Of a stretch of 34,769 bases of DNA, positions 7,827 through 21,396 are shown piece by piece. Each line of letters starts with the position of its first letter. The first letter of the stretch is position 1. Made by a program: the position numbers and the translations under genes. This stretch comes from Anaerolineae bacterium (GTDB lineage: Bacteria; Chloroflexota; Anaerolineae; Anaerolineales; Villigracilaceae). Under the pieces are notes generated by a model. The model had not been told where the DNA came from. It was given only the letters and a program-made list of their open reading frames with translations, and made no database searches. Location of the stretch: contig JABGQV010000068.1 of NCBI GenBank assembly GCA_018648655.1, positions 1 through 34,769 of the forward strand, in the 5' to 3' direction.

Positions 7827-8801
7827 CTACCCTGCCACGCTTTTCAGAAAGTCACTTGCTAATCGTATTTTGGGCACTTGTGTCTTGACTAATTGAAGCT
7901 GATTATGCTTTTCAAGGGCTGGATTGATAATCGCATCTTCTAAAACAGCAAGTAACTGCTCTCTAGTTTCATATTCTAGCGTATCTAATACCCAATCATA
8001 TTTTGATTGAAGGTTCGCCATCATTGAAAAAGGTTTCTCCCCTTTCTGGATGATAGGGGCGAAAGGAATCTGATAATCAGGCACAGTTGCTTGCAACTCA
8101 AGCGGGGCAGATTTTGGATTGGTAATGTCAACGATGACAAATAAAGAAAGCCCGGCAAGTATTTGGATCGTTTCCGTAAAATCTCGGTTTTTAGAGCCTT
8201 GAAAATCAAAAATAATGGGTAAGAAGCCGAAATCTCGGAGGCTATCGGCAATCGAATCGAGAACTTCTTTTCTTTCAGGAGGATAGAATCTGCCTAAAAT
8301 AAGAACAGCCTTTTCCCCGACAGTGTTAATCACATCACGAATTTTTTCGTTCTTAATTAGAAGGTAGATGAACTGCGCCACATCAAGATGGTCCACCGTC
8401 AGTATAGGTTCATTCTTCCTGCTAATAATCAGGTTCTTCTGTTCCGCCCCCATGAGCTTGGTATTCCAGGCAGAAATCCCATAGACCAAGCAATCTGTAA
8501 TTATGGCCCGTTGGAAATTTGTGTCAACTAGAATGGCAGATGTGAAATCGGCATTACGGATGGTGGCATCCGACAGCTTTGCTCTGCGAAGGTCAGCTCT
8601 GCGAAAACTCGCCCCCGACAAATTCGTCTCTCTTAAGTCTGCCCTGCGTAAGTTCGTGTCATTGAAGTTGGCCTTTTGCAAATCCCTTCCAAAAAGCCTA
8701 GCTTTACGAAGATTTGGTTCATTGCCTGGGTGTTTTTGTCTCCACGCATTCCACGCATCAACTCCTTCTTCTAAGATTTCCAAATGCTCTGGGTTTGCCA
8801 T
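7827..8801 (-). CDS. Pentapeptide-repeat protein with uncharacterised Rossmann-like C-terminal domain
   Basis: A 324-residue soluble protein. A short N-terminal helix region (MANPEHLEILEEGVDAWNAW) leads into pentapeptide repeats at about residues 30-110 with the A(D/N)LxX rhythm (ADLRETNLSGASFRRADLRR), expected to form a right-handed quadrilateral beta helix. From about residue 130 a second domain begins: VLILGRF, an alpha helix, PIIFDFQ, then ILAGLSLFVIVDIT, a beta-alpha-beta pattern like TIR- or SLOG-type nucleotide-binding folds, though no catalytic residues are assigned. From memory, the same two-part layout occurs in uncharacterised cyanobacterial proteins. The start has a very strong Shine-Dalgarno site (AAGGAGGAG). 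It appears monocistronic; the neighbours are a decayed gene and the end of the nar cluster. Function unknown. Confidence 0.8.
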   Translation of the reverse strand: MANPEHLEILEEGVDAWNAWRQKHPGNEPNLRKARLFGRDLQKANFNDTNLRRADLRETNLSGASFRRADLRRAKLSDATIRNADFTSAILVDTNFQRAIITDCLVYGISAWNTKLMGAEQKNLIISRKNEPILTVDHLDVAQFIYLLIKNEKIRDVINTVGEKAVLILGRFYPPERKEVLDSIADSLRDFGFLPIIFDFQGSKNRDFTETIQILAGLSLFVIVDITNPKSAPLELQATVPDYQIPFAPIIQKGEKPFSMMANLQSKYDWVLDTLEYETREQLLAVLEDAIINPALEKHNQLQLVKTQVPKIRLASDFLKSVAG

Positions 8802-9311: not shown

Positions 9312-9935
9312 CTATAAAGAGATGGGGCAAACATCTTCATGAAGTGCTAGAGCACCAGATGAAACTGCCTGGTAATAGCCTCCATGAGCGCAAGTGAGGC
9401 AAAGTACTAAATTATCTTGCTGAATTTCGCGCTCATTGATAATCTCTTCACCGCAATCATCGCAATTGACTCGCACCCCCGCACGGCTAATAATCGATTC
9501 GACTGGCTCTATTAGCACAACTTTCTCAACTGTAAGCAATTCTTCTGTTGGCATCTCTTGATAGCCTTTCAACATTGCGTAATAGCGTCGTTTTTCGTCG
9601 GGGGCGTAATCTCGGGCGCGTTGGCGTACATCCAGCCGAGGTGCTACGCGCACCGCCCCTCCAGTTTTGATATTGATGAAGGTGGCGGCTATTTTCCCAT
9701 AATCTTCTACACGGAGTGTTCGATGATTAACGCCGCAGCCAGTAACAGTTTCAATACCAGAGATAAAGCAACCATCGGTTTCTACGATTACGAGCAACCG
9801 CTTGTCGTCTCGGGGCACTTCCATGTTGACTGCCGCCGCACCAGCTAACGCCACGCGCGATCCCAGCACTTGTCGAGGACATAAAGAATTATGCCGAGAG
9901 GCTGATTCCGCAAGAATTTCTTCAAGAATATTCAT
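9312..9935 (-). CDS. FmdE-like protein with C-terminal zinc finger
   Basis: A 207-residue protein of the FmdE family, named for a subunit of tungsten/molybdenum formylmethanofuran dehydrogenase. The N-terminal region has the family pattern: SLCPRQVLGSRVA, then DGCFISGIETVTGCGVNH with conserved cysteines, then KIAATFIN. The C-terminus carries a CxxC/CxxC zinc finger (CDDCGEE and CLTCAHGGYY) like those of DksA/TraR-type ends. FmdE-like proteins are often found beside molybdoenzyme genes, and a role in molybdenum cofactor or metal handling for the nitrate reductase is inferred from that, not shown. Its ATG directly follows the narK TAA with no gap and it lacks its own Shine-Dalgarno site, so it looks translationally coupled as the last gene of the cluster. 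Confidence 0.8.
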   Translation of the reverse strand: MNILEEILAESASRHNSLCPRQVLGSRVALAGAAAVNMEVPRDDKRLLVIVETDGCFISGIETVTGCGVNHRTLRVEDYGKIAATFINIKTGGAVRVAPRLDVRQRARDYAPDEKRRYYAMLKGYQEMPTEELLTVEKVVLIEPVESIISRAGVRVNCDDCGEEIINEREIQQDNLVLCLTCAHGGYYQAVSSGALALHEDVCPISL

Positions 9936-11462
9936 TTAACACTCGATTTCCGCGCCTTTGCGGGCATAGTAGTACCAGTTGAGAATTAGGCAGGTGAAAT
10001 AATAGATCGCAAATCCATAAAGAGCGAATTCTGGCGTTCCGGCATTCACTTGTTGGCCAAAAACTCTGGGGATGATAAACGCGCCGTAGGCTGCGACCGC
10101 TGCTGTCCAGCCCAAAACAGGGCCTGCTTCTGAGGGTTTGAAGATAATCGGCACCATCCTGAAGGTAGAGCCATTGCCGATCCCGGTGGTGATGAAGAGG
10201 ATCAAGAAAAGGATCAGGAAGGGAGTAAAGAAAAGCTCTGGCTGGTTAGATGCGCTGGCTTGCTTGACGTAATAAGCAACGCCCAATGTAGAAAAGATCA
10301 TCACAACCGTATCCCATTGGGTGATTTTTGCGCCGCCGACTTTATCAGAAATCCAGCCGCCGATTGGGCGAGCAAGAGAGCCAACCAAAGGCCCAAGCCA
10401 AGCATAGGCAAAGGGATTAGGCGCATTGGGGTTAATGCTGCCGTCGGGCAATTCACCGAAGACCACGCGAATAAGCAAAGGGAAAGCAGCAGAGTACCCG
10501 ATGAAGGAGCCAAAGGTCATTGTGTATAGATAAGTCATAATCCAGTTATGCTTATTTTTGAAAATCGCAAATTGAACGTCAAGATTTGATTTGACTTCGC
10601 CAGGCACTGCCTTCATCATAAAAACTGTAGCAATAATTGTCACGGGCAAAACAAGCCACATATTAAGTTTTAAGCCGAGCAATAGATAGAGACCAATCGC
10701 AGCACCTACGCCCCCGACACCAATTAAACCCAAGATTTTCAGCAAAGACGATGAAGTAGAACCAAGATTTGGCGTAGCGGTTGAGAGACTATTCATCCCA
10801 AACCAGGCAGCCAAAGCAAGCACAAGTAAAATAGGAACCCATACAAAACCAGCGTTTTGTATATAGAATGTCTCGCCATTCACAGATAACCCTTCACCGC
10901 CCAATGCGCCGAAAAGACCGAAGGTTACAACAAAGGGGATCAAAACTTGCATCACGCTCACGCCAATATTGCCAAGCCCAGCGTTCAAGCCCAGAGACAT
11001 TCCCTGCATCCGTTTCGGGAAGAAGAAATTGATATTAGACATTGACGAAGAAAAATTCCCGCCGCCCAAGCCAGAAAAAGCAGCCAAAATAGCAAAGGTT
11101 GTAAAGGAAGTATTGATGTCTTGCAAAGCAAATCCCAAACCCAAAGCAGGCGCAATCAATAAGGCAGTTGTTAGCGCAATCACATTTTTTCCGCCTGCTA
11201 TTGCAATCAAAAAGGAGTTGGGAATTCGCAATGTAGCCCCCGCCAAGCCAGCAATTGCGGATAAGGTGAACAACTGCACCGTGTCAAAAGGAAAGCCCAT
11301 ATTTTTCATCTGGACGGTCACAACGCTCCAGCATAGCCAAACGGCAAACCCCATTAATAAACTGGGGATGGAAATCCAGAGATTACGAGTGGCGATTTTC
11401 TTTCCCGTTGATGCCCAGAATGCTTCGTCTTCAACATCCCATTTCTCAATATAACTTGACAT
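9936..11462 (-). CDS. narK: Nitrate/nitrite transporter, NarK (type II, antiporter-like)
   Basis: A 508-residue major-facilitator protein closely resembling E. coli NarK. The N-terminal region contains TGKKIATRNLWISIPSLLM and the nitrate signature region FSGLGGGNFSSSMSNINFFF, followed by LNAGLGNIGVSVMQ; these glycine-rich helices and the substrate arginine in GATLRIP line the nitrate/nitrite pore in NarK. About 12 membrane segments are visible. This type usually exchanges cytoplasmic nitrite for external nitrate, matching a nitrate reductase with its active site in the cytoplasm. It has an AGGAG site six bases before the ATG, lies 148 bases after the other transporter gene and touches the fmdE-like gene. 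Transport mode is inferred from family type. Confidence 0.93.
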   Translation of the reverse strand: MSSYIEKWDVEDEAFWASTGKKIATRNLWISIPSLLMGFAVWLCWSVVTVQMKNMGFPFDTVQLFTLSAIAGLAGATLRIPNSFLIAIAGGKNVIALTTALLIAPALGLGFALQDINTSFTTFAILAAFSGLGGGNFSSSMSNINFFFPKRMQGMSLGLNAGLGNIGVSVMQVLIPFVVTFGLFGALGGEGLSVNGETFYIQNAGFVWVPILLVLALAAWFGMNSLSTATPNLGSTSSSLLKILGLIGVGGVGAAIGLYLLLGLKLNMWLVLPVTIIATVFMMKAVPGEVKSNLDVQFAIFKNKHNWIMTYLYTMTFGSFIGYSAAFPLLIRVVFGELPDGSINPNAPNPFAYAWLGPLVGSLARPIGGWISDKVGGAKITQWDTVVMIFSTLGVAYYVKQASASNQPELFFTPFLILFLILFITTGIGNGSTFRMVPIIFKPSEAGPVLGWTAAVAAYGAFIIPRVFGQQVNAGTPEFALYGFAIYYFTCLILNWYYYARKGAEIEC

Positions 11463-11610: not shown

Positions 11611-13071
11611 TCAGGCTTCAACCTGTTTCTTCTTCGCATTTTTCCGTACAGAAAGCCCCATCCAAATCAGGCAGAGCATGGTGACGAAGAAGAAGAATAT
11701 CCACGTTGTTGTCCACAACCCGATGGATTTTAGTAAGCTCCCAAAGATGATCGGGGAAACAAATCCGCCCAAGCCACCGACTACGCCGACAATACCACCG
11801 ACAACACCAACTTCTGTTGGGAAGTATTCAGGGATAAATTTATAAACGCCCGCTTTGCCAATTCCCATCGCGATGCCGATGATGAAGACAAAGAAGGTGA
11901 AGACCCACACATTCGCCTGGAAGTAGATATGCGTCACACCGCTGGCTAATAATTCTTTCTTGGCAACTTGGTCACCCACTTCTACATTGGCGTCTTGCCA
12001 CGTATTAATTCTGGGGAACAAGATAACTTCATCAGCATCATATTCAGCCTCCACTTTCGGGATCAAGCTGTAGGTTGCATCATCCACCTGAATTTTACTA
12101 GCAGTAACAGAGGTAACTGTGCCAGATCGACGAGCCATCACGCCGCTGCCAGGCGATTCAATGCTCATTTTGGGGAAGAAAAGGAGGAAGCTACAAACAG
12201 CAATAAATCCGAAGACCCAGTACATCACCGTTCGTGCACCAAACTTATCTGATAAAACGCCCCCCAAAGCGCGGATAACGCCAGAAGGCAATGAGAATAT
12301 CGAAGTCAGTAAGCCAGCGGTTACGATGGTCATTGCATAGACGTTGACGTAATATGGAACCAACCACTGTGCCAAGGCTACAAATCCACCAAAGACGAGG
12401 AAGTAGTACATCCCAAAACGCCAGACGCGCATTTGCTTAAGCGGAGCCAACATCTGGATAATGGAACGCTGTCCATTTTCTGGTTTGCGGTTGGTGGTGA
12501 AGAAGTAAAAGACGATTGCCATCACAACTAGAGCAACAGCATAATAAGCGGGGAGTTTGCGCCAACCTTCAAGATTTTCACCATTGTCGGTCAACCAGCG
12601 AAGTAGACTTGGTGCGCCCATAGTCGTTAATGCTGCACCAGCGTTGCCTGCGCCAAAAATACCTAAAGCTGTTCCCTGTTTTTCTTTTGAAAACCAGACT
12701 GAGCTAAAGGCGATACCGACGGCAAAGGATGTACCTGTCATGCCAAAGCCTAAGCTATAAATTAGATATTCGTTATAGGAATTGGCTTGCCCCAACATGA
12801 ACATGGGGATGGCGCTAAAGAGCATTAGCAGGGTGTAAACTGGGCGTCCGCCAAACTTATCGGTTAGTACACCTAAGGGTAAGCGCATGAGAGCCCCTGT
12901 CAGTACGGGGATACCGATTAGCATGCCCATCTGGGCGGCATTCCAATCAAAGATGCGATTGTCTACCAGGAATGTGACCAAGACGCCGTTCAACATCCAC
13001 GCTGCGAAGCAGACGGTAAATGCGATTGTGTTAAGAGCTAGAACTCTGTAAGCTGTACGTTTTTCTGGCAT
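11611..13071 (-). CDS. NarK-type nitrate transporter (type I-like) with a soluble insert
   Basis: A 486-residue major-facilitator protein of the nitrate/nitrite porter family. MFS loop motifs GVLTDKFGGR (68-77) and GVLSDKFGAR (271-280) mark the loops after helices 2 and 8, and GIFGAGNAGAALTT is the first nitrate signature. It resembles proton-coupled NarK1. After helix 9 (about 283-300) comes an unusual hydrophilic insert of about 85 residues (301-386) before helix 10; MFS topology puts this loop outside the cytoplasm. The insert has short beta strands and VEVGDQVAKKELLASG, which recalls a barrel-sandwich (biotinyl/lipoyl-like) hairpin. GVGKAGVYKF-like GIGKAGVYKF and PTEVGVVGGIVGVVGGLGGF after the insert are the second nitrate signature. 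A strong GAGGAG site precedes the ATG. Transport of nitrate is well supported by type and context; the insert's role is unknown. Confidence 0.88.
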   Translation of the reverse strand: MPEKRTAYRVLALNTIAFTVCFAAWMLNGVLVTFLVDNRIFDWNAAQMGMLIGIPVLTGALMRLPLGVLTDKFGGRPVYTLLMLFSAIPMFMLGQANSYNEYLIYSLGFGMTGTSFAVGIAFSSVWFSKEKQGTALGIFGAGNAGAALTTMGAPSLLRWLTDNGENLEGWRKLPAYYAVALVVMAIVFYFFTTNRKPENGQRSIIQMLAPLKQMRVWRFGMYYFLVFGGFVALAQWLVPYYVNVYAMTIVTAGLLTSIFSLPSGVIRALGGVLSDKFGARTVMYWVFGFIAVCSFLLFFPKMSIESPGSGVMARRSGTVTSVTASKIQVDDATYSLIPKVEAEYDADEVILFPRINTWQDANVEVGDQVAKKELLASGVTHIYFQANVWVFTFFVFIIGIAMGIGKAGVYKFIPEYFPTEVGVVGGIVGVVGGLGGFVSPIIFGSLLKSIGLWTTTWIFFFFVTMLCLIWMGLSVRKNAKKKQVEA

Positions 13072-13315: not shown

Positions 13316-13999
13316 TTATTTTGTGGCTTTGCGGTCTCGCACCCCAACTACAAGTTGCCACGGGCGGATCAAGTAATCCAAGGGCCAAGAAAGGATATGA
13401 ACCAGCCGAGAGAAGGGGAATATTGCGAGCAGGGCAAAGTTGTTGATAAGGTGTAATTGGATGATCCAAGGGAGCGAGATGACTAGTTCGGGGCGTGGCT
13501 GAAACAAAAATACTGACCATAGATAAGGTGTGAATACGCCCGTAAACCAGGTAGAGCCGAAGCGATAGAGGGATGCTGTGAGTACACCTGTAATCATTGA
13601 GACAAGTGTTAGGATGAGCACTACGATGTCCATTCGGGTTGTGACAGCTTGGATATAGGGGACTGTTATGCGTCTCCAGAGTAAGACGACAACGCCTACT
13701 AATGCCCATAGCCCGAGAGCAAAACCGCTAATTTCTAATAGGTATAAGCGTAAGGGAACTGCATTCCATAACAGGAGTGCTTTTGGAAAGACTAATGCGA
13801 GCAGGTGGAGAAGCAGTATCCAGACAACTCCGTGATGGAAGGGGATTGATCCCCAATATAATTGTCTGCGCTCAAGTAATTGTGACGAAAGGCTTGATTG
13901 AGTGAATGGTCTATAAATGAGACGATACGTGGTTACCACTACAAAGAGGGTAAGTGAGATATAGGGAAAAACAACAAAGAAAAACAGGTTCCAGTCCAT
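13316..13999 (-). CDS. narI: Respiratory nitrate reductase gamma subunit (cytochrome b)
   Basis: Membrane cytochrome b subunit that takes electrons from quinol and passes them through two b haems to NarH. The 227-residue protein begins MDWNLFFFVVFPYISL, as NarI proteins typically do, and has five hydrophobic segments. Candidate haem ligands are the histidines in PFHHGVVW (55/56) and LLLHLLAL (65), paired with those in QLHLINNF and RLVHILSW near the C-terminus, matching the four-histidine pattern of NarI. The frame is open to 14053, but the ATG at 13999 has GGAG eight bases upstream and gives the family N-terminus. It follows narJ after 123 bases and is followed by the inverted repeat. Confidence 0.93.
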   Translation of the reverse strand: MDWNLFFFVVFPYISLTLFVVVTTYRLIYRPFTQSSLSSQLLERRQLYWGSIPFHHGVVWILLLHLLALVFPKALLLWNAVPLRLYLLEISGFALGLWALVGVVVLLWRRITVPYIQAVTTRMDIVVLILTLVSMITGVLTASLYRFGSTWFTGVFTPYLWSVFLFQPRPELVISLPWIIQLHLINNFALLAIFPFSRLVHILSWPLDYLIRPWQLVVGVRDRKATK

Positions 14000-14122
14000 A
14001 ATTTGTTCTCCGAAAGTTCTTGGTTTATTCGAGGCTACCCAGCAGCTTGTCACTGCGGGCCGATGCTTTTCAATGTGGCAGTCTTCTCAATGGCAAAGTA
14101 GAGCTTAGTAGCAGTTTTTGTT

Positions 14123-14626
14123 TTACGCATCAACCTGCAAAGACTTGGATTCTGCCGCGATTGCATCAAAGAGAAGCAGATAGGGGTTGTCTTTTTCAGA
14201 CTTTTTCAGTGAGTTGTGCATTGATTTTATTGATTTTTCGAGTACTTCAAGTAATTCAGGTAATGGTTCAGATGAAACACTCAGATATTGCAAAATTGGA
14301 CGCAAGTGGTCGGGGAGTTCACCTTCTAAATCAATCTCGTGAGCTTTCAGTTCGTGATTAAGTGCTGCCATAAATTCACCGCGCTTATAGCTCTCGCCCC
14401 ACATTTGGTAGCCAACATAGGGGGCGGCTAAAGGGCTAAGGTCTAAAGTACGTGTGAATAGTTCTTCGCTTTCGCTGAGTGAAAGCTCTTCAATTTTGGC
14501 TAAAAAATCAGCAAAGTATTTATTTCCAAGCTGGCCATTCAGCCTAGAAACTTTTGTATACAGTGCGTCAATCTGGCCAGGATGCGGGTAGCGCAAGGCT
14601 TCTGCCATTAGTAAAAGAGTATCCAT
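14123..14626 (-). CDS. narJ: Nitrate reductase assembly chaperone (delta subunit)
   Basis: TorD/NarJ-family chaperone that binds apo-NarG and is needed for molybdenum cofactor and iron-sulfur insertion; it is not part of the final enzyme. The 167-residue helical protein has family-like features: an N-terminal LLMAEALRYPHPGQ and a middle section ELFTRTLDLSPLAAPYVGYQMWGESYKR, corresponding to the conserved region around YVG. The ATG overlaps the narH TAA by one base (TAATG), indicating translational coupling, and an AGAGGTGAG site lies just upstream inside narH. Slightly shorter than the E. coli protein but complete. Gene order narG-narH-narJ-narI is the canonical one. Confidence 0.92.
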   Translation of the reverse strand: MDTLLLMAEALRYPHPGQIDALYTKVSRLNGQLGNKYFADFLAKIEELSLSESEELFTRTLDLSPLAAPYVGYQMWGESYKRGEFMAALNHELKAHEIDLEGELPDHLRPILQYLSVSSEPLPELLEVLEKSIKSMHNSLKKSEKDNPYLLLFDAIAAESKSLQVDA

Positions 14627-16134
14627 TACTCACCTCTCTTCGGTTGCTGGATATAACCTAGGCCCACTTCGCCTTTATGGGTTAGGGGATCCAACATCGC
14701 TTCGATGCTCATCTCACGGTGATAATTCGGGAAGACAAAACGTTCTTCCATTTTGGGCAGGGTTGTCATTTTGTACATATCAATTGCTTGCTCTTCAGTG
14801 AGGCCTGCTTCTGCCAGCGTTTTACGAGAGATGCTATCCACTTTGCCGTGAACGGTTTTTCGGCGCATATAAATGCGGACTGCTAAAAGTTTGCGTAGCA
14901 CTGTCCGAATAGTGCCTTCATCGCCTGCAGAAAATAAATTCGCCAGATATTTGATTGGCAGACGAGCGGCATCAAGACGATCAAATAGTTCAAAATCGTA
15001 ATCTTCTTGCATCAGATCAAGGCGGAAGAGACTCCTTTCGGTCACACTGACAACAGGTGATAAGGGTGGGATATAGTACATCATGACCATTGTGCGGAAC
15101 TCTGGGTGCAGCGGTAACGCAATTTCCCATTCTTTAACGAATTTATAGGCGGGGGAATTTTGAGCGGATTCGATCCAGTCATCACCGATGCCGTTTTCTT
15201 TGGCGGCGGCAATTACTTTGGGATCAAAGGGGTCAAGAATCATCTCTCGATGAGCGGCAATAAGTTCATCATCAGGAACATTAGCGGCATGTGGAATTTG
15301 GTCTGCGTCGTAGAGCAATACGCCCATATAACGGATGCGTCCAACACAGGAGTGAGCACAGGCTGGAGCTTGTCCTGTTTCCATGCGTGGGAAGCAGAGA
15401 ATACATTTTTCTGATTTGCCCGTATTCCAGTTGTAATACACTTTTTTGTAGGGGCAGGCAGCTACACACATGCGCCAAGCTCTACAATCATTTTCGTTTA
15501 CCAAAACAACACCATCTTCATCACGTTTATAAATTGCACCAGACGGGCAAGCCGCTACACAAGCGGGATTAAGGCAGTGATTACAAATACGCGGTAGATA
15601 ATTGAAAACCAATCGCTCCAGTTCGTTCATTTGTTCGCGTACTTCTTGGGGAAGACCTTCCAAGTTAGGATCATTTTTAGCGTAGATATTCGACCCACCA
15701 AGATCATCATCCCAGTTAGGACCAGTTTCAATATCAATCGGGTCTCCCGTAATCATAGAAATAGGCTCAGCAATAGGCTGAACATCTTTTTTAGGAGAGT
15801 TGAACAGGTTTTTATAATCAAAAGTGAAGGGTTCATAATAATCTCTCAGACCAGGCAAGCTAGGGTTGTAAAATAATTTAAATAGCCCTTCAAGGCGAGT
15901 ATGTAGCTTCAAATTGAGTTTGCCCTTCTTCATCTCCCAGCCCCCACGGAAGTGTTCTTGATTCTCCCATTGTGTGGGATACCCAGTCCCCGGGCGGGTT
16001 TCTACGTTATTCCACCACATATATTCGGCACCCTTGCGGTCAGTCCATATATTTTTGCAGGCTACCGAACAGGTGTGACAGCCAATACATTTATCAAGAT
16101 GAAAAACCATACTCATATGAGTTCGCACATCCAT
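14626..16134 (-). CDS. narH: Respiratory nitrate reductase beta subunit (iron-sulfur)
   Basis: Electron-transfer subunit bridging NarI and NarG at the cytoplasmic face of the membrane, with three [4Fe-4S] clusters and one [3Fe-4S] cluster. Cysteine motifs in order: CIGCHTCSVACK (from residue 16), CNHCLNPACVAACP, CRAWRMCVAACPYKK and KCILCFPR, followed by CAHSCVGR. The tryptophan in CRAWRMC replaces a cysteine exactly as in known NarH, where it creates the [3Fe-4S] site. The open frame extends to 16272, but that start has no Shine-Dalgarno site, while the ATG at 16134 has AAGGAG six bases upstream and gives a 502-residue protein of normal length. It overlaps narJ by one base and is separated from narG by 372 bases, an unusually wide gap for these genes. 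Confidence 0.95.
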   Translation of the reverse strand: MDVRTHMSMVFHLDKCIGCHTCSVACKNIWTDRKGAEYMWWNNVETRPGTGYPTQWENQEHFRGGWEMKKGKLNLKLHTRLEGLFKLFYNPSLPGLRDYYEPFTFDYKNLFNSPKKDVQPIAEPISMITGDPIDIETGPNWDDDLGGSNIYAKNDPNLEGLPQEVREQMNELERLVFNYLPRICNHCLNPACVAACPSGAIYKRDEDGVVLVNENDCRAWRMCVAACPYKKVYYNWNTGKSEKCILCFPRMETGQAPACAHSCVGRIRYMGVLLYDADQIPHAANVPDDELIAAHREMILDPFDPKVIAAAKENGIGDDWIESAQNSPAYKFVKEWEIALPLHPEFRTMVMMYYIPPLSPVVSVTERSLFRLDLMQEDYDFELFDRLDAARLPIKYLANLFSAGDEGTIRTVLRKLLAVRIYMRRKTVHGKVDSISRKTLAEAGLTEEQAIDMYKMTTLPKMEERFVFPNYHREMSIEAMLDPLTHKGEVGLGYIQQPKRGE

Positions 16135-16140
16135 AAGTGA

Positions 16141-16146
16141 CTCCTT
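16141..16146 (-). promoter_or_regulatory. Shine-Dalgarno site fixing the narH start
   Basis: AAGGAG on the minus strand lies six bases upstream of the ATG at 16134. It decides the narH start in favour of this ATG over the longer frame beginning at 16272, which has no such site. Confidence 0.85.
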
Positions 16147-16306
16147 TATTCTTGCTGGAAGTATCTTCTCCATATTAAGGAGATAGTCTTCTGAAGTTTG
16201 CCGTGCTTCTTTATTAGCAATTTGACGATTAACCGCGACGTCCCTGTTTTGAGCTTGAGTGCTGATTTCCAAGCTGGGTGCTTGGCGTGAGCAGCAATAT
16301 GTTTAC

Positions 16307-16506: not shown

Positions 16507-19500
16507 CTAGAACTCAGGCTTATCGATTCTTCGCACAAAGACGAATGTATCTCGATTTACGCCAGTGGGCCCCCAATAATTGAACGCATAGGAGAACTGG
16601 GCATAACCACCAGACATCAGCACAGGTTTGAGACGAGTACGAGTCATAGAGTTATTCATGCCGGCTCGTTTATTTCCGCGCAATTCCGATTTTGGAATAC
16701 CTATCGTGCGCTCAGTGGCGTGATAGACAAAAACCGTGCCACTGGGGATACGAGCAGAAACAATAGCTCTTTGTACAAAAACGCCATTATCGTTGAAGAG
16801 TTCGACCCAGTCGTTATCTTTGATGCCCATCTCGTCAGCGTCTTTATGATTTAACCAGACAGGGTAATTGCCACGTGAGAGAGTCATCATACGATGGTTA
16901 TCAGAATAGGTTGAGTGGATGCTCCACTTACCATGCGGGGTTATATAGTTGAGCATTTTGCCTTGCGCTTCTGCCATACTGCGTTCAGTTTCTTCAAGCA
17001 TGGTGTGATCTGGGCGCGGTTTATAGACAGGTAAATGTTCACCCCAATCCAGATAGCCTTCATGGTCAAGATAGAAATGCTGTCGCCCTGTTAGCGTGCG
17101 CCAAGGAACCATTCTCTCAACATTAAGGGTGAATGGCGAATAGGCACGCCCTTTATTGATTAATCCAGACCAAGTGGGAGTCGTTAACACCCGGCGCGGT
17201 TGAGCAATGATGTCAGAAAATGAAATGCGGGTTGAGCGCGTACCTTCTGCCAAATCGGTGAGAGAAAGTCCTGTTTTCTTTTCTTCTGCTTCGAAAGCAC
17301 GATAAGCTAGCTCTCCATTAGAGGCTGGGTCTAAGCGCAAGATGGTCTCACAAACTTGTCGTCCATATTCCAAAGAGGGGAAAGTATCACCTTTTTCTGC
17401 TTTATTTTTATCAAAGGTACGGGGTTGTTGGCGTTGAAGATATTTATATTCGTCTTCCACAGAGATACGAATGCCGTGTGCGGCAATACCGTTCTTCTCT
17501 ACACCTTTGCCCAAACTAACAAAACGCTCACCTATCTTTGTATAATCCCGCTCAATAACCTTGAAGTGTGGCATAGTCTTGCCAGGGATAGGCTCAACTT
17601 CACCTTTTTTCCAATCCACCACTTGGGGTTGTGAAATTTCGTCAGGTGTGTCATGTTTTAATGGCGACATGACCACATCTTTAAATGGATCTGGCATGTG
17701 TTTTTCAGACATCTCACTCACTTTTCGAGCCAAAGTCTTGAAAATATCCCAGTCACTTTTAGATTCCCATGCAGGTTTTACAGCAGCTTGCATGGGGTTA
17801 ATGAAAGTGTGCATATCGGTTGTGTTTAGGTCATCTTTCTCATACCAAGAAGCAGCCGGCAAAACAATATCAGAGTAGAGAGCCGAAGTATCCATTCGGA
17901 AATTAAGATCTACTACCAAATCCATTTTGCCTTCAGGAGCGTCTTTATAGTAAACCTCGTTGGTATGCCCTAAAGCTTGTTCTTTGGCAATAGCGGTACT
18001 ATGCGTTCCCAGATAGTGCTTCATAAAATACTCATGGCCTTTGGCGCTAGTTCCTATAGCGTTACCACGCCAGATCACCCAGACACGGGGCCAACTCTCT
18101 GGGGCATCGGGATCCTCTACCGCTAAGCGGATTTTCTTTTCCTTGAATTGGTCTACAACATAATCTACAATTTCAGAATCATTTTTAGCACCCCCATCAA
18201 GGGCATCTTGAGCAACATCAACAGAATTACGTTTAAACTGCGGGAAGAAAGGTAACCATCCTCGCCGTACCGCGCGAATCTGGTGATCTATGGTGTGATC
18301 CTTTGCAGGTTTATTGGGTAATTCGTCATAGGCAGTATAGCCACGTTCATAACGCCACTGATCGGAATGTACATAATGGAAGGAAGGTGTGTTTTGGTGA
18401 CGAGGAGCCATTCCCCAATCAGTTGCAAAAGCAATCGATGCCCAAGAACCAACATTGACAAGCTTTTCTTGCCCAACATAGTGAGCCAAACCACCGCCAT
18501 TCACGCCAACGCTCCCCGTCAACATCAATGCAACAATGGATGAGCGATAAAGCAGGTTGTTGTGATACCAATGATTTGCACCAGCTCCGATAATGACCAT
18601 ATTCTTACCATTGGTCATTTCACCATTCGTTGCCCATTCACGTGCATAACGGATGCAAGTATCTTGGTGAATTCCTGTATATTTTTCTTGCCAAGCTGGG
18701 GTATAAACGCCTTCGGCATCATCGTAGCTTTCTGGGTAATCGCCGCTGAAGCCACGATCCACGCCAAATTGTGCCATCACAAGATCAAATACGGTCGTTA
18801 CAGCAACGCGTCCATCTTCAGTTTCGATATAACGTACGGGAACACCACGCGCGTTTGTTGTACCAGATGAGAAATCGTCAAATTCAAGTTCGACAACTTC
18901 ATCGTGTGTATCAGCAAAACTTAATTCAGGGGCGATTTCTTCATCCGTTAAGCCATCAAATGGCTCGAGATTCCATTTTCCCGTTTCTTTTTCTCCCCAG
19001 CGGAAACCGATCGTGCCTTTGGGCATGCGTGCGCGCCCGCTCTTTTCATCCCAGATGAGCAGCTTCCAGTCACCATTTTCAACATTTTTATATTCATCAA
19101 CGCGATTTGCTCGTATATATTTACCTGGTCGCTTCTCATTGACCTCAATCAAGAAAGGCATATCCGTATATTGTTTGAGATATTTAACAAAATAAGGAAC
19201 TTGCTTCTGAACATAGAATTCGGTCAAAATTACATGATTAACTGCCATCCAGAAAGCAGTATCTTGTCCCGCATGAACGGGAATCCAATAATCAGCATAT
19301 TTCGCAACTTGAGAGAAATCGGGGGCAAAAACTGTTAATTTTCCGCCAGCATGACGCACTTCTGAGATAAAGTGTGTATCAGGGGTGCGGGTCATATTAA
19401 GGTTTGAGCCAACTACAGCTACAAAACGTGAATTGAACCAGTCTGCGGATTCGTGTACATCAGTCTGCTCACCCCAAATCTCAGGGCTAGCAGGGGGAAG

Positions 19501-20121
19501 GTCGCAATACCAATCGTAGAAGCTCATAATCACGCCGCCCATCAAGCTCATAAAGCGGCTCCCGGCAGCATAACTAATCTGCGACATAGCCGGGATCGGA
19601 GAAAACCCGGCTATTCGGTCAGGGCCATATTTTTTTGTAGTATAAATCATAGATGCGGCAATAATTTCCTGAGACTCTTCCCAAGAAATGCGTCTAAAAC
19701 CACCTTTGCCGCGTGCTTGTTGATAGCTTTTACGAGCCTCTTCATCTTCCATAATAGCAGCCCAAGCCTTAACAGGGTCTCCATAAATGGATTTTGCTTT
19801 GCGCCAAAGGTCTACTAACACGCCGCGAGCATAAGGATATTTGACACGAATAGGACTATAAAGGTACCAGGAATAGCTGATGCCTCGCTGACAGCCACGC
19901 GGTTCATAAGGAGGCAAGCCCTCTTCTAGTTGTGGATAATCAGTAGCCTGCATTTCCCAAGTGACAATGCCATCTTTAACAAATACCTCCCATGAACAAC
20001 TGCCTGTACAATTTACACCATGCGTCGTACGTACCCGCTTATCATGTTGGTGGCGGTTTCTGTAAAACTCTTCCCATTTACGTTCAGTCGGTGAAATTTT
20101 CTTTTTAGACCAGTTTTTCAT
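16507..20121 (-). CDS. narG: Respiratory nitrate reductase alpha (molybdenum catalytic) subunit
   Basis: Catalytic subunit that reduces nitrate to nitrite at a bis-MGD molybdenum centre. The 1204-residue length is close to the E. coli subunit. [12 protein letters not shown] supplies His34, Cys38 and Cys42, which with Cys77 in EPRGCQRG form the histidine-coordinated FS0 cluster site. [15 protein letters not shown] holds Asp203, aligned with the Mo-ligating Asp222 of E. coli Nar[18 protein letters not shown] follows as in NarG. No twin-arginine or Sec signal is visible, fitting a cytoplasm-facing enzyme rather than the exported archaeal type. The ATG at 20121 has AAGGAG six bases upstream and overlaps the cytochrome gene stop by four bases (ATGA). 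The assignment is secure. Confidence 0.97.
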
Positions 20122-20999
20122 GAGTGTCTCCTTGAAGTAATTCCTGCATCTTTTCTTAAGCGATCAGATAGGGTTTCTTTTTGTTGTGACCAGAAAAACG
20201 ACATAAAACCGAAGAGTAAGGCAGCACCCATCAATCCGACACCCCAAAACAAAGCTGATGCACTATCCGCAACACCTTCTTCTTCGCCTCTTGCGCTATT
20301 GATAGTGAGAAAAACCAGCAAATCTGAAACTTCCTGATTTGTCAAAGACTTCTCTTCGTAAACACCTCGCATCGTAGGAAAAGCGATATTTTGAAGCGAA
20401 CTAGTCAAACCAATTTTCCCAAAGCGGCTATATACTTTTGTTAAATCAGGTCCTAGATTACCACCACCAAACGCGCCAACAGTTCCCACGGTGTGGCAAG
20501 CTATACAAGGCGTCCCCCCCATTTCAAGAGCCTGAGTTCCTGTAAAAATAGCTTCTCCGCGCGCCACATGCCCTTGTGGCAAAGTTATGTCAACAGCTTC
20601 CACACTCTCTCCACTTTCAAAGAAAATTAAGAGAGATTCAACTTCTGTCTCAGTGAGAGCCAAGTTTGGCATTTCAATGTCATTATATTCAGCCAATAAC
20701 TCTAGAACTATTGGGTCTCCTGAGAGAATAAGCTGATCAGGAATGCTTATAAACTCTGCTACCCAAGCTCGATCTCGCCTATCAAGCACTCCCTGCAAAT
20801 CAGGTCCGACGATAATGCCATCTCCGATCGAATGACAAGAAGCACAACTTTCATCAAAAATATCTTTCCCTGCGCTAGAAGACTGCAAATCCGATTCCGC
20901 AGATGTCTGGCAACCTCCTAACAAAAAAAACACACTTAGCAATAGAATCACAAAAGACCTTCTACCAAATGAGTTCCAGACCTTATGCCTAATTTTCAT
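20118..20999 (-). CDS. Dihaem cytochrome c lipoprotein of the nar operon (NarC-like)
   Basis: A 293-residue membrane-anchored cytochrome with two c-haem domains. The N-terminus has basic residues, a hydrophobic stretch and a lipobox LLGGC (Cys30). Haem motifs are CASCH (52-56) and CIACH (165-169); Met110 in MPNL is a likely sixth ligand for the first haem. A C-terminal membrane helix (about 258-279) and a short basic tail follow. In Thermus thermophilus the nar operon also starts with a dihaem cytochrome gene (narC) needed for nitrate reductase assembly and electron flow; the role here is inferred by that parallel, although the architecture is not shown to be the same. Start 20999 is preferred over 21014 because GGAGG lies eight bases upstream. 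It overlaps narG by four bases. Confidence 0.85.
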
Positions 21000-21396
21000 A
21001 GGATACGCCTCCATTATTAGTTGTTTTTCCCTTTAGAGCTTTTTCATCAGCAGCCATTTTTCGTTCGGGCAAATCCATAATCGCAGTGAGCAAATCAGAT
21101 ACACGAGCCTCAATGGAGTGATTTGTAATAACTTGCATTTGGTTGGCACTAAGATCAGCATGAATAATTGCGAGATCAGGGTTGGCAATCAAAATAGGTG
21201 CAAAATTTTCCACAACACTTTCGTCCACCACAGCCATAATCACAGCATCAAGAGAATATTCCTGCAATATAGGTAGTGCATCTTCAAGGGTAGGAGCTGT
21301 GCCAACCACAGCCACATCTTCACTATCCCCCAGTGACTGAATCAAAGTCTCAGCAAATAACGAATCACCAACGACAAAAACATTACGTAGCTCCAT
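20989..21396 (-). CDS. Receiver-like protein lacking the phospho-acceptor aspartate
   Basis: A 135-residue protein whose first 110 or so residues resemble a response-regulator receiver: LRNVFVVGDSLFAETLIQSL (strand 1 and helix 1), VAVVGTAPTLEDALPIL (strand 2 and helix 2), then LDAVIMAVVDESVV, where a receiver would have its phosphorylated Asp in a VIMDI-type strand but this one has Ala. The acidic pair after strand 1 is also reduced to one Asp, and no output domain follows. So it is probably a pseudo-receiver working by protein contact; this is inference. It opens the narC-like/narGHJI run and overlaps the cytochrome gene by 11 bases. The ATG has no Shine-Dalgarno site; see the terminator just upstream. 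Partner and role unknown. Confidence 0.65.
   Translation of the reverse strand: MELRNVFVVGDSLFAETLIQSLGDSEDVAVVGTAPTLEDALPILQEYSLDAVIMAVVDESVVENFAPILIANPDLAIIHADLSANQMQVITNHSIEARVSDLLTAIMDLPERKMAADEKALKGKTTNNGGVSYEN
21008..21012 (-). promoter_or_regulatory. Shine-Dalgarno site fixing the cytochrome c start
   Basis: GGAGG on the minus strand ends eight bases before the ATG at 20999. The alternative ATG at 21014 overlaps this site and has none of its own, so the shorter start is chosen. Confidence 0.75.

Follow-up and report, generated by a model that had tools for sequence, protein, structure and literature searches.

An RpoB-like barrel-sandwich-hybrid domain predicted in the TM9-TM10 loop of a clade of NarK1-type nitrate importers

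We found that the narK1-type gene in the window, the whole stretch of 34,769 nucleotides analysed here, encodes a transporter with an insert between helices TM9 and TM10 which, as judged from sequence profiles and structure models, is almost certainly a self-contained barrel-sandwich-hybrid (BSH) domain. On the same kinds of evidence, its nearest relative among the BSH families is likely to be a segment of the RNA polymerase beta subunit, RpoB. The insert is shared by a clade of related transporters, and it is under purifying selection. We lean slightly towards an explanation that takes these points together, namely that an RpoB-like BSH domain was gained once in the TM9-TM10 loop, has been kept by purifying selection, and serves there as a rigid accessory module.

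The transporter and its TM9-TM10 insert

The gene and the parts of its product that matter here are as follows.
11611 to 13071, minus strand: coding sequence of the narK1-type nitrate transporter with the putative BSH insert inside it, 486 aa, an intact open reading frame
12184 to 12237, minus strand: TM9 helix, residues 279-296 (AF2 model)
12172 to 12174, minus strand: Pro300, at the end of TM9 and unchanged across 41 sequences
11905 to 12171, minus strand: insert, residues 301-389, a predicted folded extracytoplasmic beta domain replacing a short loop (alignment, isolated AF2 model)
11935 to 12150, minus strand: BSH core, residues 308-379, aligned to RpoB (VIA-align, hhalign)
11938 to 11985, minus strand: VEVGDQVAKKELLASG, residues 363-378, a BSH-type motif by sequence, which aligns with a VGD.V.KG..LADG-like RpoB stretch
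11824 to 11910, minus strand: TM10 helix, residues 388-416 (AF2 model), with the conserved FQANVW (384-389) just before it

Taking sequence and model together, the product of 11611-13071 is a NarK1-type putative nitrate importer of the NarK/NNP family of MFS. It matched the Pfam model MFS_1 (E 4.7e-42) and the NarK family model TIGR00886 (E 1.7e-54), the latter with 185.3 bits against a curated cut-off of 311.7; this shortfall was not taken as exclusion from the NarK family, because the NarK2 of the same operon falls under that cut-off as well (286.2 bits). The best TIGR00886 stretch ends at residue 304, and across the insert-bearing clade this NarK model breaks off at the insert. When the family profile was compared with PDB sequences at E <= 1e-5, it gave three distinct matches, all nitrate/nitrite transporters of the NarK/NarU kind, and their best stretch stops short of the insert, at profile position 301. 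The full-length AF2 model (41 sequences) has a mean pLDDT of 84.2 and, by our count of its helices, 12 transmembrane segments, and NarK/NarU structures (4u4t, 4u4v, 4u4w, 4jre, 4iu8) lead its Foldseek matches; the 50 matches listed are all MFS transporters and are uninformative on the insert. Additionally, the protein has both Arg63 and Arg267, found in 16 and 17 of 17 aligned proteins, respectively, which we take to be the substrate-site arginines of TM2 and TM8 that correspond to R89 and R305 of E. coli NarK, a protein outside this alignment.

Structure prediction of the whole protein placed a beta domain between TM9 and TM10, in line with the original prediction of a soluble, beta-rich insert of about 85 residues at this point. 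The stretch that it had singled out, 11914-12171, corresponds to residues 301-386 (86 residues), and the full-length AF2 model has six strands between the two helices (302-312, 317-322, 326-329, 332-335, 354-361 and 374-384). When the insert was modelled alone (AF2, 39 sequences), we obtained the same strands as in the whole protein with a mean pLDDT of 92.2, which rules out a disordered loop; a membrane segment is likewise ruled out, as both AF2 models show beta strands and no membrane helix. In the full-length model the strands of the insert are better modelled than its junctions, where the mean pLDDT is 57 (residues 301-310) and 65 (residues 381-390), and residues 347-349 fall under 50.

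Motif A is cytoplasmic in MFS proteins. Motif-A-like sequences precede TM3 (TDKFGGR, 70-76) and TM9 (SDKFGAR, 274-280), so that the TM9-TM10 loop with its insert would lie on the extracytoplasmic side, which agrees with the side first proposed. The insert presumably stands before the second nitrate signature. By position, Pro300 would be the counterpart of P302 of P. denitrificans NarK1, a protein outside our alignment. That proline, at the periplasmic end of TM9, is essential for NarK1 activity according to the accessible part of PMC5217062.

The suspicion that such a loop is unusual for a NarK protein held when loop lengths were compared. Over the alignment span P300-W389 the window NarK1 has 90 residues, against 23-29 in four named NarK1-like proteins (24 in T. 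thermophilus NAR1, 23 in P. aeruginosa, 23 in Thioclava and 29 in Deinococcus), 16 in the NarK2 of the same operon and 5 in the locus L039. The T. thermophilus and P. aeruginosa proteins, 44% and 46% identical to the window NarK1, share the Arg63, Arg267 and Pro300 positions and come from loci in which a NarK1 gene is likewise followed by a NarK2 gene; they differ from it in having no BSH domain in the loop. Upon searching plasmids with the transporter, we observed that 39 of the best 40 matches, from 231 records, end at query residue 300-311, the single longer one being the Deinococcus protein.

Fold and likeness to RpoB

The barrel-sandwich resemblance proposed at the outset was borne out by profile, profile-profile and fold comparison, with the difference that the nearest relative found is a segment of RpoB and not a lipoyl or biotinyl domain. 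The NCBIfam RpoB model PRK00405 was matched by 30 of 39 insert members (best 3.9e-5), and when the insert profile was compared with PDB sequences, RpoB was the top match (E 0.0063) and made up 36 of the 40 matches listed. With hhalign, the insert aligned to the RpoB of 15 genomes, that of the window included, with a probability of 96.0 (E 3.9e-9), whereas other segments of the same RpoB alignment, none of them overlapping this one, reached at most 1.6; 71 insert rows against 35 RpoB rows gave 97.3 (E 2.2e-11). The hhalign family comparison covered RpoB, BCCP and E2 lipoyl domains; the corresponding probabilities were 79.7 over 63 columns for BCCP, represented by 3 sequences only, and 43.1 for E2, represented by 4 sequences only.

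Fold comparison with the insert model pointed to the same family. RNA polymerase chains made up all 50 matches listed by Foldseek (E 0.022-0.13, TM-scores 0.47-0.58) and all 50 listed by VIA-align (Z 7.7-9.2); most of these Z values are below 8, which per the tool is perhaps merely a common arrangement, and the top rows have an rmsd of 4.5-6.4. The rows with 61-63 aligned residues cover residues 8-79 or 9-79 of the insert model, with Z 7.7-8.5, rmsd 3.0-3.5 and 25-35% identity. RpoB chains are over-represented in the PDB and can fill a list of 50, and because of this and of the weak Foldseek E values and VIA-align Z and rmsd values, we give more weight to scans of whole genomes.

Upon scanning 301 Chloroflexota genomes with the insert profile, we obtained at least four matches, two in NarK and two in RpoB. 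A second sample, of 395 genomes of the phylum of locus L014 (Bacteroidota by label), gave at least 63. NarK accounts for 33 of them, with a frame length of 201 aa in one case and 487-556 aa in the other 32; another 29 fall in frames resembling RpoB, 1266-1348 aa long except for one of 780, and the last lies in a 33-aa fragment. In this second sample BLAST confirmed 32 of the 33 NarK matches and 20 of the 29 RpoB matches, which is all those fetched. Across both scans every match checked, 56 of 67, was NarK or RpoB, and outside the checked set there were one NarK-like match, nine of RpoB size and the 33-aa fragment. The number of first-look candidates that the scans scored was capped, in one example at 13 out of 29, and other hosts of the domain may therefore be missed. 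Biotinyl or lipoyl proteins are present in 20 of 20 relatives, and the 301 and 395 genomes scanned should therefore contain them too; no match of the insert profile was identified as one. RnfC, used as a further control, was found in 10 of 20 relatives, mostly as half-domain matches.

An origin from some other BSH protein, with the resemblance to RpoB having arisen by convergence, is improbable. It would fit with the BCCP alignment and with the weak matches of insert members to several Pfam BSH families, namely RnfC_N (21 of 39), Peptidase_M23 (6 of 39) and Biotin_lipoyl (6 of 39); for RnfC_N the best match to a single member (1.7e-4) is nearly as good as that of RpoB. Against it, all 22 checked non-NarK proteins identified at E <= 0.001 in the genome scans are RpoB, and RpoB is the best of the three families compared by hhalign, where BCCP and E2 are represented by 3 and 4 sequences only. 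The relation between insert and RpoB is one of profile similarity over about 70 columns, for which descent from RpoB is a candidate explanation.

The matching RpoB segment (E. coli 713-786, the start of Pfam RNA_pol_Rpb2_6) has a fold and a motif similar to those of the insert, and it sits in a cytosolic enzyme whereas the insert sits in the loop of a membrane transporter. In the transporter, such an RpoB-like module would stand apart from RNA polymerase and across the membrane from it. By its position the segment appears to precede the flap SBHM of RNA polymerase, which is described in the accessible text of PMC8131849. Two other functions of such a domain were rejected. A lipoyl or biotinyl carrier is ruled out, with EAMK in 0 of 71 rows and no carrier-lysine motif; an ETDK-like pattern occurs in 2 of the 71 insert rows, both times within VGQEIEKKELL, outside any hairpin. 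A metal or heme site is ruled out too, as no Cys or His is invariant in the insert over the 71 rows.

Distribution, conservation and selection

Upon aligning the protein with other NarK1 proteins, we found the insert in 38 of 42 related loci, a proportion that is biased upward because the query patterns favour close relatives; one of the six patterns lies inside the insert. When the insert columns were left out of the tree, all 38 rows that carry the insert grouped together (SH-aLRT 87; a quick method, with long branches flagged), so we regard the insert as a clade-wide trait and not a peculiarity of the window protein, and its distribution fits a single gain. The related loci are labelled Chloroflexota, Bacteroidota, Ignavibacteriota, Chlorobiota, Fidelibacterota, Planctomycetota and Thermodesulfobacteriota, with one record each for Pseudomonadota and Thermoplasmatota; nearly all of the records are MAGs, and the single-record phyla may therefore be binning errors. 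An insert-bearing NarK occurs in a record labelled Thalassarchaeaceae archaeon (L026), where MAG contamination is possible.

The 395-genome sample has the insert in 30 genomes, three of them with two copies, and three of these 33 copies repeat loci already among the 42. With the insert present in 38 of 42 related loci and in those 33 copies, an assembly artefact or chimeric contig is ruled out. In the sample of the window's own family, 3 of 61 genomes carry the insert and 6 of 61 have a strong NarK match (E < 1e-40). The insert sets apart a clade of predicted nitrate importers, whose members come from Bacteroidota, Ignavibacteriota and Chloroflexota, among others. Among the open-licence papers listed by our searches (in one case the best 15 of 1,195), judged by titles and abstract starts, no NarK with a BSH or other extra domain was recognised; the NarK family and the BSH fold are each already known, and it is their combination that was not recognised in the literature searched.

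Further arrangements of NarK genes were seen. In L024 (6721-8529) and L027 (1911-3557) a third, long NarK-like ORF (549-603 aa frame) without the insert lies beside the insert-bearing narK. One genome of the window's family has two NarK matches in a single 923-aa frame (G045, contig C24, 558-2942), like the fused NarK1-NarK2 of Paracoccus; the insert profile had no match in that genome.

Next, we examined conservation in 71 insert rows, 68 of them distinct. Eight positions are identical in all 71 (G308, G310, G317, P353, W358, G378, F384 and A386), and eight more insert positions in at least 90%. Eleven of these 16 lie within residues 302-312 or 374-389, that is, in the end strands and the step into TM10, and the far loop of the insert, 340-350, is variable. 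In six pairs of close relatives the dN/dS of the insert was 0.09-0.17 vs 0.03-0.05 for the rest of the protein, about two to three and a half times as high; the pairs share sequences, several have dS > 1, and saturation left two other pairs without a value. The insert is under purifying selection.

Operon context and possible role

The transporter gene belongs to a nitrate reductase operon, with the following neighbours.
9936 to 11462, minus strand: NarK2-type nitrate/nitrite transporter without the insert (NarU model 1.3e-101, below its cut-off)
13316 to 14053, minus strand: narI, directly upstream of narK1 (reading and gene order)
14123 to 14626, minus strand: narJ (reading and gene order)
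14626 to 16272, minus strand: narH, best identity to Thermus NarH 68.8% over 93%
16507 to 20121, minus strand: narG (ORF list)
20118 to 21014, minus strand: NarC-like diheme cytochrome c (Cytochrom_C 8.3e-12)

In the order of transcription, the genes are a NarX-like kinase, a NarL-like regulator (named from reading), a small ORF, the NarC-like gene, narG, narH, narJ, narI, narK1, the NarK2-type gene and an FmdE-family gene; narI homologues precede the insert-bearing narK in many other loci. By reading, no Tat-type twin arginine was seen at the NarG N-terminus, and NarG is therefore probably cytoplasmic. The NarC-like protein has, again by reading, a lipoprotein-like N-terminus and a C-terminal hydrophobic stretch, and it is 39% identical to T. 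thermophilus NAR1 NarC over 194 columns (E 2.8e-25), with two CxxCH in each. The Thermus narCGHJIKT operon has the same cytochrome c-G-H-J-I-K1-K2 order as the window and differs in that its NarK1 lacks the insert. In Thermus, NarC is an additional nitrate reductase subunit that interacts with NarI, as described in the accessible text of PMC7694296. The same text describes NarC as absent from the nar operons of mesophiles; here a NarC-like gene adjoins narG in many MAGs across several phyla, which would be a contrast if mesophiles are among them.

The original prediction named the cytochrome lipoprotein as a possible partner of the insert, and we searched 31 relatives' genomes (28 insert-bearing and 3 insert-less) for NarC. 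In 23 of the 28 insert-bearing genomes a NarC-like match extends over 223 or more of the 298 residues, in three cases with a stop codon. The insert-bearing L024 and L031 had no NarC-like match and instead have a NarI with a cytochrome c domain. In L034, L035 and L038 the insert is present, the cytochrome matches are limited to single domains, and narGHI was not recognised in the stretch examined. The insert locus of L034, from the isolate Flavobacterium jejuense, lies beside molybdenum-cofactor genes and another molybdopterin oxidoreductase, and that of L038 near a NirB-like nitrite reductase. Two of the three insert-less genomes had no NarC-like match, and the third, L040, a weaker one (E 6.2e-19, 240 residues). 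Of 22 insert-bearing loci that include part of narG, 21 have the NarC-like gene adjoining it. In all 19 loci computed, the match is no more than about 120 bases away from where narG should start, a point estimated from the length of the window narG, with placement on the same contig judged from coordinates; in L013 and L017 the genes were seen side by side by direct reading. The 22nd locus, L024, has no match and its narG start is off the contig; L009 and L025 are outside this count. Separately, we observe that in the two Phycisphaerae loci, L024 (3050-4894) and L031 (2-1555), the cytochrome c domain is C-terminal in NarI and perhaps replaces a separate NarC.

What stands of the proposed partnership is the frequent adjacency; as a universal rule it is ruled out by counter-examples in both directions, with NarC and no insert in Thermus NAR1 and the insert without a NarC-like match in L034, L035 and L038. 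Because Thermus NAR1 and these three relatives break it, the association between insert and NarC, though real, is neither necessary nor sufficient, and the co-occurrence may reflect shared operon history only.

As to function, our tentative choice, held at somewhat less than even, is an accessory module over an essential gate, by analogy with other MFS transporters. The BSH insert would be a rigid module rooted on TM9 and TM10 and would probably act near the membrane face of the transporter's C-terminal half, because the end strands and the FQANVW step hold most of the conserved positions and the far loop is variable. It could stiffen or steer the TM9/TM10 pair and present a face to an adjacent protein of the envelope, for which NarI/NarC or NarK2 would be the likeliest candidates in the respiratory operons; in this way it may tune or organise nitrate delivery and yet be dispensable for basic transport. 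A rigid domain on TM9/TM10 could also shield the outer mouth. The extracellular domain of mammalian PepT1 and PepT2 is likewise a folded beta domain inserted in an MFS importer, in the TM9-TM10 loop. It comprises two immunoglobulin-like domains, binds trypsin and can be removed without appreciable loss of transport, according to the part of PMC4597091 that was accessible. In Rv1410/MHAS2168 a beta element occupies the same periplasmic MFS loop, though as a small hairpin only, and its loss left lipid transport unaffected, as stated in the accessible text of PMC10576003. An accessory module is favoured because both elements are dispensable.

It is possible, though unlikely, that the insert instead docks NarC, or NarI together with it, and so holds the importer beside NarGHI for nitrate to enter there. 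The frequent NarC-like matches (23 of 28 insert-bearing genomes), their place beside narG (21 of 22 loci), the cytochrome c domain of NarI in L024 and L031 and the interaction of NarC with NarI described for Thermus (accessible text of PMC7694296) would all be expected of such a dock. The T. thermophilus NAR1 narC-G-H-J-I-K-T operon has an insert-less NarK1, however, L034, L035 and L038 carry the insert without a NarC-like match or recognised narGHI in the stretch examined, L024 has no NarC-like match, the insert-less L040 has a weaker one, a stop codon occurs in three of the 23 matches, and shared operon history could explain the co-occurrence. We consider it rather more doubtful still that a piece derived from RNA polymerase beta was recruited as a docking domain that couples NarK1 to a NarC-type reductase in a transporter-reductase complex. 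The insert is a concrete deletable part for asking whether nitrate import and reduction are physically coupled.

A gating lid, moving with the C-terminal half and limiting or coupling the opening of the outer gate, seems to us rather unlikely. The insert starts right after Pro300, counterpart by position of the essential P302 (accessible text of PMC5217062), and runs into TM10, which the accessible part of PMC6394727 counts among the pore helices, and most of its conserved positions fall in its end strands. Yet there are NarK1 proteins, 44-46% identical to this one, that lack the insert, the junctions that would fix its position over the pore are weakly modelled, and the PepT2 domain and the Rv1410/MHAS2168 hairpin are removable without loss of transport, as far as the accessible texts of PMC4597091 and PMC10576003 go. 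It is improbable that the insert is a neutral passenger, folding stably and simply tolerated where the loop permits additions: extra elements are tolerated and dispensable in those two other MFS transporters (accessible parts of the same two papers), the insert has a dN/dS above that of the rest and 4 of 42 relatives lack it, but the tree has no loss within the insert-bearing clade, its dN/dS remains at 0.09-0.17, and eight positions are identical in 71 of 71 rows, with eight more in at least 90%.

Finally, we note several genes around the operon. The FmdE-family protein (9312-9935, minus strand; a weak zinc-finger match) lies directly downstream of the narK pair; on a Deinococcus plasmid (L125), too, an FmdE-family gene has an MFS gene of the NarK1-like type close by. 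The small ORF at 20989-21396 (minus strand, 135 aa) overlaps the start of the cytochrome gene and has weak matches to MptE-like and Response_reg only. Further along, the gene at 7827-8801 (minus strand) has pentapeptide-like repeats followed by a domain that gives the impression of a TIR- or nucleotide-binding-type fold.
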